Origin: Gracilinema caldarium DSM 7334
GTDB lineage: Bacteria > Spirochaetota > Spirochaetia > Treponematales > Breznakiellaceae
Assembly (NCBI RefSeq): GCF_000219725.1
Contig: NC_015732.1
Span: 744,001 to 808,000 of the forward strand
Reading direction: 5' to 3'
DNA length: 64,000 nt
Position 1 is the stretch's first letter; the number at the start of each line of letters is the position of its first letter. The translations under genes and the position numbers were made by a program. Under the pieces are notes generated by a model, which saw only the letters and a program-made list of their open reading frames with translations, ran no database searches and was not told where the DNA came from. Below are positions 24,641-33,036 of the stretch, piece after piece.

Positions 24641-24696
24641 TACCGATAATTCGGTAACATCAATTTATCGGTGTTTTGATACCGACATTTCGGTAT
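24641..24696. promoter_or_regulatory. Palindromic upstream sites of dps (ACCGA-N4-TCGGT)
   Basis: Two near-identical palindromes: TACCGA-TAAT-TCGGTA (24641-24656) and ATACCGA-CATT-TCGGTAT (24679-24696), both perfect in their arms. A third, degenerate site with a good right half (TTATCGGTG, 24659-24673) lies between. Their centres are about 111, 94 and 72 bases upstream of the sigma-54 GG at 24759, the normal range for enhancer sites. The same motif occurs upstream of the peroxiredoxin gene (31486-31522). Confidence 0.75.
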
Positions 24697-24756
24697 TATT
24701 TTGCAGAAAAAAGTCGTTTTAATTTATAAATCATAATAATATAAAGAAATACGATA

Positions 24757-24774
24757 TTGGCATGCTAATTGCTA
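24757..24774 (+). promoter_or_regulatory. Sigma-54 promoter of dps
   Basis: ATTGGCATGCTAATTGCT has GG (24759-24760), ten bases and GC (24771-24772); the -12 element TTGCT is full consensus and the -24 element TTGGCAT differs in one base. Start of transcription would be near 24784, 28 bases before the ATG. Confidence 0.85.
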
Positions 24775-24811
24775 TTATTATAAAACAAACCGTATATAAG
24801 GAGTAACTATT

Positions 24812-25249
24812 ATGGTATCTATAGAAAAACGGCTTGCGAAGCACGTATCGGATCTGGCGGTTTTATTTATCAAACTCCATGATTATCATTGGCATGTTCG
24901 GGGGCCTCAATTTAAGGTACTCCATGAACTAACTGAAGCCCTCTATGATGGGGTGAACGAGCAGTATGATGCGATCGCAGAACGACTCGTGCAGCTGGGT
25001 GGTAAAGCGCCTGCTAGTGCAGCTGTCTATGCACGGGAAAGTTCCATATCCGAAGCTGGTGCTGCTTTCTATACTGCTGATGATATCCTCAGTGGGGTTA
25101 TCAAGGATTTTGAGTATCTCCTGGGCGAATATAAAGTAACCAGAAAACTGGCTGCAGATATCGATGATGCTGCAACGGATACGCTGTTCGCCGATTATAT
25201 TAAGGATTTAGAAAAACAGATCTGGATGCTGAAAGCCATGAAAGCCTAG
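24812..25249 (+). CDS. dps: Dps-family DNA-binding ferritin-like protein
   Basis: A 145-residue Dps protein, a 12-mer that binds iron with peroxide and shields DNA. Ferroxidase residues are visible: H26 in LHDYHWHVRG, H38 in LHELTEALYD, and D53/E57 in YDAIAERLVQLGG. Length is at the short end for the family and the N-terminus has only a few basic residues (EKRLAK). AAGGAG precedes ATG 24812. Transcription from a sigma-54 promoter with palindromic enhancer-like sites upstream is unusual for dps, which is normally under OxyR, PerR or sigma-S control. Confidence 0.93.
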   Translation: MVSIEKRLAKHVSDLAVLFIKLHDYHWHVRGPQFKVLHELTEALYDGVNEQYDAIAERLVQLGGKAPASAAVYARESSISEAGAAFYTADDILSGVIKDFEYLLGEYKVTRKLAADIDDAATDTLFADYIKDLEKQIWMLKAMKA

Positions 25250-25264
25250 AAGGCTAAGCGTTAT

Positions 25265-25294
25265 GCCCCGGCGTTGCTCATGCTCCGCCGGGGC
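25265..25294. terminator. GC-rich hairpin between dps and the convergent transporter gene
   Basis: Perfect 9-bp stem GCCCCGGCG/CGCCGGGGC with a 12-base loop. No U tract follows on either strand, so it is a hairpin of uncertain terminator strength. Confidence 0.5.
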
Positions 25295-25315
25295 AGCTTG
25301 AACATCTAGAGGCGA

Positions 25316-26278
25316 TTATTCTTTCTCTTCTATGCAGAGGCTTTTATTACGTATCTCCTGTAGAGTTCTAAAGACCAGATACATAACCACCAGAGAAAGT
25401 ACGACAGCAAGCCCTGAAGCAAAACTTCTATAAAAATAAATTTTTGAGACCCGATACATTAAAATTGTAGAAACCGTCAGGGCCGCCAGAGGAAAAGAGT
25501 ATGCCCACCATGAAAGGTAAAACTTAATGGTAATAAATTGACGCCATTGCATTAAAACGAGAATAAACAGAAAGATTGCAAAATAAAACATAACCCGTGC
25601 GAAACTGTCGAAAGATCCGGTAAGTTTATAATAGGAAATAAAGCCAATCGCAGGCGGGGCAAAGAGAATAAACAAGGTGGGTATAAGCCGTTCTGCTAAA
25701 GGTGCATGAAAGATCACTCGATACAAGACAATCGTAAAAAGTACTATCCACAGGATGAATCCGATAGCGAAGAAAAACCAGGAAAGTTCCCGGTAGCCAT
25801 GCTCTACCCCTGCAATCGGAATCATAATAGATCCTACAACGGGCATGAACCAAGCAGGATTTATATGATGAATTTCAAAATTTTTTGGACCGATCCACGT
25901 AGATACCAAACTAAAGATGAATATAGTTTGGATGACCACCCCAATGAGCCAGAACGTTAATGATACCTGTTTTTGGAATGAAAGAAATATTACCGATTGT
26001 ATTAAAAATATCTTGCTGATGAGGGGATAGAAATTCATCTTAATTGGGTGTGAAAATTCTTTTGCCACTACTTTGGGATAGCGTAATAATCTAATTCCAA
26101 ATACCATCGCAACTAAAAGGAAAATGACAAGTCCTACACCGGTCAGTATCTGGCTTACCACATACAAAGAATGAAAAAGTTCAGAAAGTTTTACAAATAC
26201 TAAAGCCAGTCCTGATAGGCCTAGTACTATCGAGAAAAATGAAATAGAAAAATGTTCAAGCCGGGATGATTGCTTCAT
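25316..26278 (-). CDS. TDT-type (TehA/SLAC1-like) membrane transporter
   Basis: A 320-residue protein with about ten hydrophobic segments in pairs, starting MKQSSRLEHFSISFFSIVLGLSGLAL. The opening FSIxxGLxGLALxxVK and the later GPKNFEIHHINPAWFMPVVGSIMIPIAG match the tellurite-resistance/dicarboxylate transporter family (TehA, SLAC1), whose members pass anions. The actual substrate is unknown. A normal TTGACA-type promoter with AT-rich spacer is visible upstream on the minus strand (about 26310-26345). It is an independent unit between dps and the ORP-like operon. Confidence 0.8.
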   Translation of the reverse strand: MKQSSRLEHFSISFFSIVLGLSGLALVFVKLSELFHSLYVVSQILTGVGLVIFLLVAMVFGIRLLRYPKVVAKEFSHPIKMNFYPLISKIFLIQSVIFLSFQKQVSLTFWLIGVVIQTIFIFSLVSTWIGPKNFEIHHINPAWFMPVVGSIMIPIAGVEHGYRELSWFFFAIGFILWIVLFTIVLYRVIFHAPLAERLIPTLFILFAPPAIGFISYYKLTGSFDSFARVMFYFAIFLFILVLMQWRQFITIKFYLSWWAYSFPLAALTVSTILMYRVSKIYFYRSFASGLAVVLSLVVMYLVFRTLQEIRNKSLCIEEKE

Positions 26279-26745: not shown

Positions 26746-27645
26746 CTACTTCTCCTCTGTAGTTGATTTGTTCAGCATTTCGCCCAATCGATGCCAGGCG
26801 TTTTTCAGTTGATCCTTAATGGGACTCTCCTGTTCATATTCCACGATGGTCTTTTCTGCGATTATGGCCCGGGTTACCTTTTCGTCGTAGGGAAGAACCG
26901 CAAGCAATGTGATATGCTGGGAATCCAAATAAGCGACGATCTTTTCGGTCATTTCGGGATTTATATCCGATTTATTGATGATACAGCCGGCAGGGATTTT
27001 AAATTTTTTCACCAGTTCATAGACCCGCTGTAAATCGTGGAGCCCCGAAACAGTGGGTTCGGTTACGAGCACCACAAAGGAAGCTCCACTTAAAGAGGAT
27101 ACCACAGGACAGCCGATACCCGGAGAACCGTCCACCAGTACCAGAGCTTTCCCCTGTTCTTCCGCAAGAGCCTTTGCCCGTTTTTTTACCTCTGCCACGA
27201 GCTTTCCCGAATTGTCAGAACCGATCCCCAGTTTTGCGTGCACCATGGTACAGCCTGCTCTGGTGGTGGACACAAAGAGCTGGCCCGCTTTTTCTTTATG
27301 ATTACTAATAGCCTTGGCAGGACAGACGCGAGAGCAGTAACCACAGCCCTCACAGACGAGGCTATCGATCTTGTAGATTCGCCCCCGGCGAGCTATGGCG
27401 CTAAAATGACAAACCTGAGCACAGCGGCCACAACCGATACAGCGATCAGGATCGATCATCGCTACTTCACCGGAATAAAAATCCTCCTGTATGGCCATGT
27501 CAGGTTTTAGTAAAAGATGCATATCCGCCGCGTCCACATCGCAGTCCGCCGCCACCAGGTTGGCAGAGCCTAATATGGTAAAACTGGCGGTAATGGAAGT
27601 TTTCCCGGTCCCCCCCTTGCCGGATATAACGACAATTTCTTTCAT
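26746..27645 (-). CDS. MinD/ParA-type ATPase with inserted 2x[4Fe-4S] ferredoxin domain
   Basis: A 299-residue P-loop ATPase: deviant Walker A GKGGTGKTS at 9-17, then CDVDAADMHLLL, with an inserted ferredoxin module at about 60-115 holding two CxxCxxC...CP clusters (DRCIGCGRCAQVCHFSAI and CEGCGYCSRVCPAKAI). VDGSPGIGCPVV and the Thr-Glu-Pro switch VTEPTVSGLHDL follow. In ORP-type clusters two such ATPases work with DIM proteins, probably in building or loading the metal cluster. Its start overlaps the stop of the preceding gene by four bases, and the DIM gene begins 2 bases beyond its stop. Confidence 0.92.
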   Translation of the reverse strand: MKEIVVISGKGGTGKTSITASFTILGSANLVAADCDVDAADMHLLLKPDMAIQEDFYSGEVAMIDPDRCIGCGRCAQVCHFSAIARRGRIYKIDSLVCEGCGYCSRVCPAKAISNHKEKAGQLFVSTTRAGCTMVHAKLGIGSDNSGKLVAEVKKRAKALAEEQGKALVLVDGSPGIGCPVVSSLSGASFVVLVTEPTVSGLHDLQRVYELVKKFKIPAGCIINKSDINPEMTEKIVAYLDSQHITLLAVLPYDEKVTRAIIAEKTIVEYEQESPIKDQLKNAWHRLGEMLNKSTTEEK

Positions 27646-28958
27646 GTTGTACTCCCGCTCAGGTTTTTAATGTAATTGGCCACTTTTTCCAATTCCGAAC
27701 GGAATCGGGGAAGTTCCCTATAGATCAGTTGACCCCGGGAATACAGTTCAGCCGCCCTTCGGTCGTTGGGTAAGCGGGCCAAAATGGGAATCCCCTCAGT
27801 TTCGCAGTATCGGTCCACCGAATCATTTCCCACCCCGTAGCGATTGATGACCACCCCAAAGGGATTACCCATCTGTCGGATGGTCTCTACGGCCAGCTGC
27901 AGGTCATTCAGCCCGAAGGGATTGGGCTCGGTAACCAAAATAACCAGGTCCGATGACCGGACGGTCTCAATCACCGGGCAGGATGTTCCCGGGGGAGCAT
28001 CGTAAATTCGATATGGGTATGAGCCAAAGGTTTCTTTTACGGAGCGCTTGGTTTGGGCAATCAGGGGAACTGCCTGTTCTTCACCAATATCAAGCCTGCT
28101 TTCAATAAACACCAGTTTGTCCAGATCAAAGCGCCGGGTTTCTCCCATCCGTACCGGAACCATGGGCAGTGCCCTGGCGGGACAGAGATCCGAACAGGCA
28201 AAACAGCCATGGCAAAGCTGGGGAAAGATCATGATTTCTTTACCCAATTTGACGATGGCATGAAAATTACATACCCTTTGGCACAGCCCGCAGAGGGTAC
28301 AGGCAGAGCCGTCCCACTGGGGAATGTATTTGTATTGTATTTCCCGGCTTGCTTCGGTTCCCCGGATAAAAAGTCCCGAATTGGGCTCTTCCACATCCAG
28401 GTCCACCAGCACCACCGGTTCTGTTTCTGCAAGAAGGGCGGCTAGGTTGGTCGACAGGGTCGTTTTTCCGGTGCCACCCTTTCCGCTTGCAATGACGATA
28501 TCACTCATCAGTCTTTTGTAATTCCTCAAGCCGTTTGCGAATAGCCTGCTCCCCGGCCCGGTTTTCCGGCGACCCCAACGATGGCGGTGTCCGGAAAGAC
28601 AGCCGGGCATGGCATAGATTGGTTTATTAAGTTGCCCGGTTTCCCAGGCATGCAGTACTACTTCCAGTGGGCCGGCAATAAAGGAGAACACCTCTATCCC
28701 AAAGTTCCGGATTTCCATTTCCAGGTCCCGGGATATGGCTCCACAGATTAACTCGTTTACCCCCTGGTCAGCCAAAAAACGAGCCTTTTCAGCAGAATGC
28801 TTCATGGACCAATTGAACTCATGGCCTAATCGGTCATGCTCACCGCTTTGATGATCCAAAGCTCCTGTAGAGGGCTCCATATCCAGAATGAGAATCCGCT
28901 CAGCGGAATCGAACACCGGTGCGACCCGTTGATTCCAGGGGGTAATTGCCAGCCTCAT
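27642..28958 (-). CDS. DIM domain fused to Fe-S MinD-type ATPase
   Basis: A 438-residue fusion. Residues 1-120 are a DIM/NifX-type domain (MRLAITPWNQRVAPVFDSAERILILD, then VNELICGAISRDLEMEIRNFGIEVFSFIAG). A basic linker (about 122-150) leads to a MinD/Mrp-like ATPase with Walker A ASGKGGTGKTTLS, ferredoxin insert CTLCGLCQRVCNFHAI and CHGCFACSDLCPARAL, and DAPPGTSCPVIETVR. In most genomes these are two genes; here the frame is continuous with no stop, although MSDIVIASGKGG could be an internal start. First gene of the ORP-like operon behind a sigma-54 promoter. Confidence 0.9.
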   Translation of the reverse strand: MRLAITPWNQRVAPVFDSAERILILDMEPSTGALDHQSGEHDRLGHEFNWSMKHSAEKARFLADQGVNELICGAISRDLEMEIRNFGIEVFSFIAGPLEVVLHAWETGQLNKPIYAMPGCLSGHRHRWGRRKTGPGSRLFANGLRNYKRLMSDIVIASGKGGTGKTTLSTNLAALLAETEPVVLVDLDVEEPNSGLFIRGTEASREIQYKYIPQWDGSACTLCGLCQRVCNFHAIVKLGKEIMIFPQLCHGCFACSDLCPARALPMVPVRMGETRRFDLDKLVFIESRLDIGEEQAVPLIAQTKRSVKETFGSYPYRIYDAPPGTSCPVIETVRSSDLVILVTEPNPFGLNDLQLAVETIRQMGNPFGVVINRYGVGNDSVDRYCETEGIPILARLPNDRRAAELYSRGQLIYRELPRFRSELEKVANYIKNLSGSTT

Positions 28959-28969
28959 ATTATATATAT

Positions 28970-28986
28970 AGCATAAACTGTGCCAA
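28970..28986 (-). promoter_or_regulatory. Sigma-54 promoter of the ORP-like operon
   Basis: On the minus strand TTGGCACAGTTTATGCT has GG (28984-28983), ten bases and GC (28972-28971), with a full TTGGCAC -24 element. Strangely the ATG at 28958 lies only 13 bases beyond the GC, so transcription would start almost at the start codon, or translation begins further in. Confidence 0.85.
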
Positions 28987-29142: not shown

Positions 29143-30555
29143 ATGACCGATATCATTTTGGAAAGTATTTCCGATGGGGTTTTTACCATAGACCTAGAGT
29201 GGCATATCACTTCCTTTAACCGGGCGGCGGAGAACATAATCGGGATTAAACGGAACGAAGCCATAGGGAAACTGTGTTACGAGGTCTTTAAGTCCAACAT
29301 GTGTGAATCCCGCTGTCCTCTGCGGAAAACCATGCAGAGCGGCAAACCGGTCATCAATGTGGAAGGGTTCTGCATTAACCCCGCGGGAGAGCGGATACCC
29401 ATCAGTGTATCAACAGCCCTCCTGAAGGACCAAGCGGGGCATGTGATAGGCGGTGCCGAAACCTTTCGGGATCTGCGGGAATTAGAAGAACTCAAGCAAC
29501 AGCTGGTTTCCGATCCTCTTAAGGGGGAACTAACGAGCCGTAGTCCTGCGATGCATCCAATCCTGGAAATGCTTCCTACTGTGGCGGACAGTTCCGCGGT
29601 AATTCTGATTGAAGGAGAAACCGGTACGGGGAAGGAAGTTACCGCCAGGGCGATCCACCGTATGAGTCCCCAGGCACAGGGGCCCTTTGTAGCGGTAAAC
29701 TGCGGAGCTCTTCCCGATACGCTTTTAGAGTCAGAACTCTTCGGGTATAAAAAAGGCGCCTTTACCGGGGCTGACCGGGATAAGATTGGTCGTTTTAAAA
29801 TGGCTGATGGGGGCGCCCTGTTTCTGGATGAGATCGGAGAAATTTCTCAGGCCATGCAGGTTAAGCTCCTCCGGGTGCTTCAGGAAGGTGTCTATGAACG
29901 GCTGGGGAGTACCACATCGGAACGGAGCCGGGCCCGTATCATCTGTGCCACCAACCGGAACTTAAAGCAGATGGTAGAGGAGGGCCGGTTTCGCCGGGAC
30001 CTCTTTTATCGCATTAATGTAATTACCCTTTCCCTCCCGCCCTTGCGGGAGCGCAAGGAGGATATCCCCGGGCTGGCAGACTATTTCTTACGAAAATATC
30101 GTATTAAAATGGGCAAAAAAATACAGGGTTTTACCGAGGATGTCTACGAGGCGTTCTATGCCTACCCCTGGCCCGGTAACATCCGGGAACTGGAAAACGT
30201 CGTTGAACGGGCGGTGGTGCTCTGTTCAGGAGAGCGCATCACGCTTTCCTGCCTGCCTGAAGAATTGGTACACTGGAATGTACAGGCCGCCAGGGCCCTG
30301 ACTCTTTTGCCAAAGCCCGCTGGAGCCCCAGGGTTTTCTCCTATTCTACCTCATCACCATGAAGCCCCTGAGGTCCCCCACGAGGAACGTTTTCACCAAA
30401 CCGCCGCCCAGGCGGAGACCGACCTGATACGGAAAACCCTGGCCCAAAACGGCAACAACCGCACCCTCACAGCCCGCCAGCTTGGTATACACCGGGCAAC
30501 CCTGTACCGAAAAATGAAACAGTACGGGATAGAGCTGGATGAGTCCGGTGTGTAA
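29143..30555 (+). CDS. PAS-type sigma-54-dependent activator (NtrC family)
   Basis: A 470-residue enhancer-binding protein. Residues 1-115 are a PAS domain (ILESISDGVFTIDLEWHITSFNRAAENIIG) with a cysteine cluster, SNMCESRCPLRKTM, that could sense redox or bind Fe-S. Residues about 135-370 are the AAA+ domain with Walker A GETGTGKE, the sigma-54 contact loop KKGAFTGAD, Walker B GGALFLDEIGE and the arginine finger region RFRRDLFYRINV. The C-terminus has a Fis-type HTH (TLTARQLGIHRATLYRKMKQYG). It is divergent from the ORP-like operon, as the regulator of orp genes is in Desulfovibrio, and TGTTGCA sites lie between them. Confidence 0.94.
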   Translation: MTDIILESISDGVFTIDLEWHITSFNRAAENIIGIKRNEAIGKLCYEVFKSNMCESRCPLRKTMQSGKPVINVEGFCINPAGERIPISVSTALLKDQAGHVIGGAETFRDLRELEELKQQLVSDPLKGELTSRSPAMHPILEMLPTVADSSAVILIEGETGTGKEVTARAIHRMSPQAQGPFVAVNCGALPDTLLESELFGYKKGAFTGADRDKIGRFKMADGGALFLDEIGEISQAMQVKLLRVLQEGVYERLGSTTSERSRARIICATNRNLKQMVEEGRFRRDLFYRINVITLSLPPLRERKEDIPGLADYFLRKYRIKMGKKIQGFTEDVYEAFYAYPWPGNIRELENVVERAVVLCSGERITLSCLPEELVHWNVQAARALTLLPKPAGAPGFSPILPHHHEAPEVPHEERFHQTAAQAETDLIRKTLAQNGNNRTLTARQLGIHRATLYRKMKQYGIELDESGV

Positions 30556-30674: not shown

Positions 30675-31322
30675 CTACAAACTCTTGTGGCAGAACCACC
30701 AGTCATAGCCTTCGTATTTCTTGAGCCGCTCCTCCGCATCCTTCATAGTCTTGGCAGGAGGAATAATGACCCGGTCTTTAATCAAGCTGTTATTCGGCCA
30801 GTCCGCGGGGACCGCAACGCCGTTTTTATCCGATACCTGGAGCGCCTTCGCTGCCCGGACAAATTCGCCGATATTCCGGCCGATTTCCTGGGGGTAGTAC
30901 ACCACAAGCCGTACCTTCCCGTTGGGGTCGACGATAAAGACCGCCCGAACCGTATTGGTCCCCTTTCCGGGATGGAGGAGCCCCAGTTTTTCCGCAATGG
31001 CATCATTCGCCGCCGCAATGGGGAAGGAAATGGAGACCCCGAGCTTTTCCTTAATCCACTCAGCCCATTTGATGTGACTGAATACCTGGTCTACAGACAT
31101 ACCGATGAGCTTGACCCCGAGCGCCTCAAACTCTTTAGCATGCTGTTCAAAGGCTACAAATTCGGTGGTACAGACGGGGGTAAAATCCGCAGGATGGCTG
31201 AAGAGCAGGAACCAGGATCCCTTAAGGTCCTGGGGTAGATGCAGTACGCCGTGGGTGGTTACCAGTTCCATTTCGGGAAAATCATCTCCCAAGAGGGGCA
31301 TTGAAAATCCTTTTTCTTCCAT
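30675..31322 (-). CDS. Prx6-type peroxiredoxin
   Basis: A 215-residue peroxiredoxin that reduces hydroperoxides. The peroxidatic cysteine is C51 in [13 protein letters not shown]; the length, the [20 protein letters not shown] segment and the C-terminal arm place it in the 1-Cys/Prx6 subfamily. A second Cys, C211 in DWWFCHKSL, resembles the C-terminal Cys of archaeal members and could resolve the oxidised form. AAGGAG precedes the ATG. It is transcribed from a near-perfect sigma-54 promoter and shares upstream palindromes with dps; a GAF-type activator gene is divergent. Confidence 0.95.
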
Positions 31323-31397: not shown

Positions 31398-31414
31398 AGC
31401 AATAACTGTGCCAA
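31398..31414 (-). promoter_or_regulatory. Sigma-54 promoter of the peroxiredoxin gene
   Basis: On the minus strand TTGGCACAGTTATTGCT matches consensus at both elements: GG at 31412-31411, ten bases, GC at 31400-31399. About 76 bases separate it from the ATG. Confidence 0.93.
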
Positions 31415-31485: not shown

Positions 31486-31522
31486 ACCGAATAATCGGTA
31501 TTTTTAATACCATAATATCGGT
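31486..31522. promoter_or_regulatory. ACCGA-N4-TCGGT sites shared with dps
   Basis: ACCGA-ATAA-TCGGT (31486-31499) is perfect in its 5-bp arms; ACCAT-AATA-TCGGT (31509-31522) keeps the right half. Their centres are about 80 and 104 bases from the GG of the peroxiredoxin sigma-54 promoter. The second copy touches the ribosome-binding site of the activator gene at 31534, so binding there could also limit its own expression. Confidence 0.72.
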
Positions 31523-31533
31523 GGAGGCAACGA

Positions 31534-33036
31534 ATGGTCGGTGAATCTCTGGTGATGGACAGTTCCCGGGTTCTGGAAATTATCCTGCAGGCCTTACGGG
31601 AACTGGTTGAATACGAGCTCGCGGTTATCCTGAAATATGACGGCCAGGAGCACCTTCGGGTTATAAAAGCCCTGGGGCCCCTTTCCACGAGAGCCCTCAA
31701 CAACTACACCATCTCCCTTGATGAACGGCCGGATCTTGCGGCGGTCATTACCCGAAAACGGGCCCATCTTTTTAGCCCCGATGAGCCCCATGTGGATACC
31801 TATGCGGATATTCTGGATCTGCCGGACCAGCATTCCTGTCTCGTTTCACCTTTAATGATCGAAGACGAACTGGTGGGTCTTTTAACGCTGGATCACCGGT
31901 CATGTAATCGCTTCAGTCCGGCTATTGTCCGCTTTGTGGAAACCCTTTCCAAACTCATGTCGATTGCTCTCATCCAGCTGGATATGTCCCGCGACCTGGC
32001 AGAACAGAACAGCCGGCTTTTACAGGAACGGAACCAGCTCCTGCTCTCTGAGTCCGATGTCTTTTCCCACCTGGTTGGGGAATCTACCGAATGGCAGCGG
32101 GTATTGGATTCAGTGAAGCTCGTGGCAAGCGCCACCGTGCCGGTCCTGCTCCAGGGTGAAACCGGTACCGGAAAGGAAGAAATTGCCCGGGCTATCCACC
32201 GGCTCTCTCCCCGCGCCAGGGGTCCCTTTGTACCGCTGAATTGCTCCGCCCTGACAGCCAGCCTCGCCGAAAGTGAACTCTTTGGTCATGAAAAGGGTGC
32301 CTTTACCGGCGCCCTGGCGCTTAAACGGGGCCGTTTTGAGCTCGCCCATGGGGGTACCCTTTTTCTCGATGAAATTGGAGACCTGCCCCTGGAACTCCAG
32401 CCCAAGTTACTGAGGGCCCTGCAGGAGGGGGTTTTTGAGCGGGTGGGCGGAGAAAAACCGGTCCAGGTAGATGTCCGTATTATTGCAGCGACCCATGTGG
32501 ATTTACAACAAGCGGTAGCGGCCGGTACTTTCCGGGAAGACCTCTATTACCGTCTCGCAGTGTTCCCTATAGAACTGCCACCCCTGCAACTCCGGTCCGC
32601 AGATATCCTCCTCCTGGCCGATTATTTCCTGCGGAGAATCCGGGAGCGTTCAAACCGACAGGTCTTAAGCTTCAGTCCCGAAGCGTTAGATAAAATACAG
32701 CGGTATACCTGGCCGGGGAATGTGCGGGAGCTAAAAAATGTCATTGAACGGGCAAGCATCCTCGCGGTAGATGGCATCATCCGGCCGGAGCACATAACGG
32801 GCCTCAGAACCGAGGCGTTGGAGCCTGCTTCCCGATGCGAAGAGGCTGGCTCCCATGATGGTGAGGGCTCCGATGGCCGAAAGCGGTCCCTGAATGAGGC
32901 CATGGCAGACCATATCCGGCAGGCCCTTAAGGCCTGCGGGGGTAAAATCTATGGTTCCGACGGCGCCGCAGCCCTTTTGGGGCTTAAGCCCAGCACCCTC
33001 CAGAGCCGGATGAAAAAGCTAGGAATTAGGAAGTAG
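31534..33036 (+). CDS. GAF-type sigma-54-dependent activator (NorR-like architecture)
   Basis: A 500-residue enhancer-binding protein. Residues about 8-165 are a GAF domain ([45 protein letters not shown]), then a short coiled coil. The AAA+ domain (about 185-420) has Walker [23 protein letters not shown], Walker [14 protein letters not shown] and the R-finger region [13 protein letters not shown]. The C-terminal HTH is weakly Fis-like ([21 protein letters not shown]). The GAF-AAA-HTH order is that of NorR, which senses NO with a GAF iron site, and FhlA. Its neighbour suggests a signal of peroxide or other oxidant. GGAGG precedes the start. Its 3' end overlaps ackA by 18 bases, tail to tail. 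Confidence 0.93.

Follow-up and report, generated by a model that had tools for sequence, protein, structure and literature searches.

A candidate sigma-54 regulon of dps and a peroxiredoxin gene with a NorR-like activator in Gracilinema caldarium

The dps gene of the free-living spirochaete Gracilinema caldarium DSM 7334 is preceded by three palindromic sites and a sigma-54 (-24/-12) promoter, and a similar array lies between a peroxiredoxin gene (prx) and the divergent gene of a GAF-AAA+-HTH activator (Table 1). Both loci are in the window, i.e. the whole stretch of 64,000 nucleotides analysed here, which covers positions 744001-808000 of the single-contig genome of 3,239,340 bases. The palindrome consensus at the two genes is ACCGA-N4-TCGGT. 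An earlier sequence-only reading had described two perfect copies and one degenerate copy at dps, 72-111 bases upstream of a sigma-54 promoter, and re-reading the sequence gives the same three sites at closely matching distances. It had also reported the same palindrome and geometry at the peroxiredoxin gene 6.8 kb away, and the layout that we find there agrees.

Table 1. Features of the dps and prx loci, in positions of the window; distances are from site centres to the GG of the -24 element.
Feature	Positions	Strand	Sequence	Remarks
dps distal palindrome	24641..24656	.	TACCGATAATTCGGTA	exact core ACCGATAATTCGGT at 24642-24655; 110 bp before -24 GG
dps middle degenerate site	24659..24672	.	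ATCAATTTATCGGT	2 mismatches; 93 bp before -24 GG
dps proximal palindrome	24681..24694	.	ACCGACATTTCGGT	exact; 71 bp before -24 GG
dps sigma-54 (-24/-12) promoter	24757..24773	+	TTGGCATGCTAATTGCT	0 mismatches to TTGGCAYN5TTGCW; -12 GC at 24770-24771
dps, 145 aa	24812..25249	+		PF00210, 85.3 bits; ATG at 24812
prx, 215-aa peroxiredoxin with 1-Cys Prx C-terminal domain	30675..31322	-		PF00578, PF10417; NCBIfam PRK13189, 335.5 bits (cut-off 211)
prx sigma-54 promoter	31398..31414	-	TTGGCACAGTTATTGCT	-24/-12 box match
prx proximal palindrome	31486..31499	.		exact; 80 bp from -24 GG
prx middle site	31509..31522	.		2 mismatches; 103 bp from -24 GG; 23 bp from proximal site
prx distal site	31529..31542	.		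1 mismatch; 123 bp from -24 GG; overlaps activator start codon
NorR-like sigma-54 activator, 500 aa	31534..33036	+		Pfam GAF, Sigma54_activat, HTH_8; GAFTGA; Fis-type HTH

The window Dps has a ferritin-like fold according to its Pfam match and carries, by eye, the H/H/D/E ferroxidase motif (LHDYHWHVRG...YD...D.IAER). It is 49% identical to TpF1 of Treponema pallidum, a solved Dps-like protein. Its top NCBIfam match is the Dps equivalog, yet the score is below the cut-off (69.8 vs 114), the model covering one of several Dps branches. No sigma-70-like site was found on the plus strand at the dps promoter, and a PerR box there was rejected as weak, with 3 mismatches. A G+C-rich hairpin (25262-25296, by eye) between dps and the convergent SLAC1-family gene (25316-26278) is possibly a shared terminator.

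The activator has the features of a bEBP: its AAA+ domain matches PF00158 with 235.6 bits and contains the GAFTGA loop, -24/-12 promoters are present at dps and prx, and the genome encodes rpoN. This gene, which the sequence-only reading had not named, is the likely controller of dps and prx.

The palindrome is not over-represented in the genome according to our pattern searches. There are 4 exact copies in 3.24 Mb vs ~3 expected by our own calculation, and 95 copies with at most one mismatch vs 93 in the reversed control; the signal lies in the placement of the sites and not in their rarity. The dps and prx loci account for three of the four exact copies; the remaining one falls within the coding sequence of a cheR-like gene and was set aside. 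When the 243-bp intergenic region of dps was shuffled 20,000 times with its dinucleotides preserved, no shuffle had two exact palindromes and none had a sigma-54 box. The sigma-54 consensus itself is strongly enriched, with 24 exact matches to TGGCAYN5TTGCW in the genome vs 1 in the reversed control. Only the dps and prx promoters among these 24 have a clustered palindrome array upstream, while two others have a single isolated 2-mismatch palindrome more than 200 bp away.

The activator and its sites are found together in other genomes. Five Breznakiellaceae genomes encode the activator, including four clear orthologues with 58-81% identity, three of which are divergent from prx with palindromes in between. 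In the fourth (G028), prx is on another contig, and prx and the activator gene each have their own palindromes (loci L081 and L223), as would result if a rearrangement had split or duplicated an array that both once shared. Our scan of public genomes using the GAF alignment gave 35 activator loci, in spirochaetes, Desulfosarcina cetonica, Malonomonas rubra, a member of Desulfuromonadales and a Melioribacteraceae MAG. In a separate draw of 393 spirochaete genomes, 20 carry the activator. At most activator loci a palindrome lies near the start of the activator gene, and a sigma-54 box points toward the divergent gene. That gene is prx in the majority, dps at L115, L116 and L136, and at L120 a dps that prx follows. 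The link between the activator and dps therefore does not rest on the window alone; the sites in L115 and L116 have 2 mismatches. The array is also kept at unlinked targets, namely dps of G015 and prx of G243, G205, G098, G392 and G028. Recognizable sites near the activator are absent in the T. denticola group, G135, L098 and L099. The sequence-only reading had named loss of the palindromes in close relatives with conserved gene order as evidence against its proposal, and what we observe is that the relatives keeping the activator mostly retain them, dps doing so even when unlinked, as in G015.

The sites have a common spacing across loci. The conserved site is YACCGAN4TCGGTR, and toward the target promoter the sites are commonly spaced by 17-18 and then 22-23 bp. 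Ordered triples (16-19 then 20-24 bp) were found in 13 of 45 regions, a count from which the region boundary excluded some known triples (L103, L106 and L110), and never in the reverse order or in the shuffle sets. The spacing is 20/23 at prx of the window and 17/22 at dps when the degenerate middle site is included, which lies 17 bp from its distal neighbour and 22 bp from the proximal one. Since 17/22 fits the common pattern, the degenerate middle site is probably real.

We compared Dps loci in genomes with and without the activator, taking the best 30 Dps loci from the 393 spirochaete genomes and scoring 400 bp upstream for palindromes (up to two mismatches allowed) and a sigma-54 box (up to one). 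Both sites and box were present at 6 of the 7 loci in activator-bearing genomes vs 0 of the 23 in activator-lacking ones (Fisher p = 1.2e-5, in a test that ignores relatedness). The exception is G277: this genome encodes the activator, and its Dps gene, whose product is more distant (40%), has no sites. G350, which shares its genus label with G135 and has a Dps 50% identical to that of the window, lacks the activator, the sites and the box. The array plus box was not found at the ferritin and rubrerythrin loci of the activator carriers. The small regulon of dps and prx proposed in the sequence-only reading thus gains support from the co-occurrence of palindromes and activator across genomes.

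In T. denticola/putidum-type genomes the activator is unlinked, and a variant array (of the ACTGATATATCGGT type) with a sigma-54-like box is located at the targets, either a dps-prx pair (G251 and G110, whose dps box has AG for GG at -24) or prx alone (G243, G205 and G098). The T. pallidum-type genome G135 (1.1 Mb) encodes a Dps that matches the solved TpF1 antigen chain 2fjc over its full length. A sigma-54 box without any mismatch, TTGGCATGGTTTTTGCT, immediately precedes the start of the gene for this Dps; exact boxes number just two in G135. The only enhancer copy there is degenerate, with 2 mismatches, and no site was found at ahpC or upstream of the activator gene of G135. Membership of tpF1 in the regulon, as judged from these upstream elements, is plausible but weak. 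The activator of the T. pallidum type is, going by gene position, probably TP0082, a gene annotated FhlA (name in PMC5015957).

NorR is the curated family nearest to the activator (NF003451 equivalog), with 405 bits, below the cut-off of 476, compared to 822 bits for E. coli NorR. As in the NorR-norVW system of E. coli, a GAF-AAA+-HTH activator is divergent from its target, with three palindromic enhancers in between and a sigma-54 promoter, and three sites occur at dps as well as at prx. The E. coli sites, in contrast, are of the GTCAN3TGAC type with spacing 21/24, unlike the motif and the 17-18/22-23 spacing found here, and the target of NorR is an NO reductase in place of prx and dps. Changes of the NorR residues R75, Y98, D99, H111 and C113 disrupt its iron centre (PMC2941729). 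Y98, H111 and C113 are kept in the activator and so are D96 and D131, whereas R75 is replaced by Asp, D99 is not conserved, and C124 is an additional invariant residue. The activator is not a member of NorR, from which it departs in DNA motif, in targets and in part of the iron centre; the analogy with NorR drawn in the sequence-only reading hence holds for the mechanism, given the three sites of E. coli norR-norV and the nearest curated family, and fails for membership.

In an alignment of 55-56 rows that includes some near-duplicates, D88, Y90, H100, C102, D120 and C124 of the activator GAF domain do not vary, and H86 and H121 hardly do; these residues are candidate metal ligands. The confidently predicted GAF structure (mean pLDDT 86) matches GAF domains in PDB at low identity, 14-16% at best, to a Geobacter GAF protein, Lcd1 and phytochromes, so these matches do not identify the ligand. 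The conservation pattern suggests that the domain likely holds a modified metal site.

Our analysis suggests that dps and prx very probably form a sigma-54 regulon under this activator, a reading built on the genomic evidence above. The mechanism that we infer comprises activator binding, hexamer assembly, metal sensing, oxidant induction and autoregulation. Three activator dimers on the three palindromes would assemble into a hexameric AAA+ ring, whose activity the GAF domain would hold off until an oxidant or NO at its metal centre relieves the block. The activated ring might then reach the sigma-54 RNA polymerase by looping of the DNA and open the dps and prx promoters, and their joint induction would couple iron sequestration and DNA protection with peroxide removal. 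The activator, when bound over its own start region, may limit its own synthesis. The targets prx and dps favour an oxidant as the signal. We consider peroxide or O2 somewhat better than an even bet for this role, while NO is a possibility that we hold with less confidence.

An alternative hypothesis could be that the regulon is the same but its activator is a plain NorR-like NO sensor, with prx and dps serving against nitrosative stress in an anaerobe. NorR being the nearest curated family and the five retained GAF residues speak for such a sensor, but Asp takes the place of R75, the proposed NO-displaced ligand, D99 varies, and the divergent gene is prx or dps wherever it could be named (in the loci checked by eye or by tblastn); we regard this hypothesis as rather unlikely.

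The palindromes might also belong to another regulator, e.g. a repressor, with dps being activated by a different bEBP such as the PAS-type one at 29143-30555, as the genome encodes 10 strong sigma-54 activator domains and two FUR-family proteins, and the weak PerR-like box, with its 3 mismatches, extends over the -12 region of dps. Another regulator is nevertheless improbable: the palindromes follow the GAF activator from genome to genome and occupy the interval between its gene and the divergent target, the divergent sigma-54-like box of the PAS-type activator itself (28970-28986) is not accompanied by these palindromes, and PerR-like matches of such quality are expected ~9 times per window by chance. 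Reading the palindromes as terminators or other hairpins with no role in activation is the least credible option and was rejected: two minus-strand stretches there do score terminator-like, but the sole minus-strand gene reading toward the palindromes (25316-26278) stops before dps, and the spacing of the sites and their distance from the promoter are conserved elsewhere.

Returning to the sigma-54 regulon under the GAF activator, we tentatively extend it beyond the window, at a little less than even confidence: peroxide or O2 may be sensed by an activator that is related to NorR but whose GAF metal centre has been re-modelled, and this activator may drive prx and dps in anaerobic spirochaetes as well as in some members of Desulfobacterota and Melioribacteraceae. 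T. pallidum would then retain a remnant of the system, in which the Dps gene tpF1 is perhaps among the main targets of sigma-54. If this holds, such a sigma-54/AAA+ peroxide switch would stay firmly shut off in the absence of its trigger and would couple peroxide removal with iron sequestration. A concrete target set would become available for a family of activators so far uncharacterised, and the role of sigma-54 in treponemes would become directly testable.

The well-known bacterial peroxide regulons are those of OxyR or PerR. They likewise place ahpC/peroxiredoxin-type genes and dps/mrgA under common control (PMC4518328), whereas their regulators are of the LysR or Fur family and the one proposed here is a sigma-54 AAA+ activator. 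The RpoN-RpoS pathway of Borrelia burgdorferi is another case of spirochaete sigma-54 acting through an enhancer-binding protein (PMC3037356), but its activator is Rrp2 and its direct target rpoS. In the literature we found neither dps described as a sigma-54 gene nor such a regulon, which is weak evidence as subscription journals were thinly covered. In a 2025 survey of sigma-54 (PMC12316311), the sigma-54 sets of proteobacteria include a peroxiredoxin COG, and the D. vulgaris sigma-54 regulome paper mentions neither peroxiredoxin nor NorR.

Several other sigma-54 boxes were observed in the course of the analysis. The PAS-AAA+-HTH activator gene (29143) and a Nitro_FeMo-Co/ParA-type ferredoxin ATPase gene (27642-28958) are oriented away from each other, and G070 has a box comparable to that at 28970-28986 in the equivalent interval. 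Hsp20-like small heat-shock genes lie directly 3' of exact sigma-54 boxes in the G. caldarium genome (L027 and L030) and also follow such boxes in T. denticola-type genomes (L185, L190, L194, L177 and L178). Genes of RpoD-like sigma factors begin shortly after exact boxes in G. caldarium (L034 and L035) and in G205 (L187), which recalls the RpoN-to-sigma cascade of Borrelia. The box TGGCACGAAAGTTGCW is recurrent, being found in G. caldarium (L028, L029 and L041), in G098 (L175, L181 and L186) and at L182 and L189. Its three copies in G. caldarium have the same 35-aa frame 154 bases downstream, and this box may, instead of being a promoter, represent the terminus of a mobile or repeated element.
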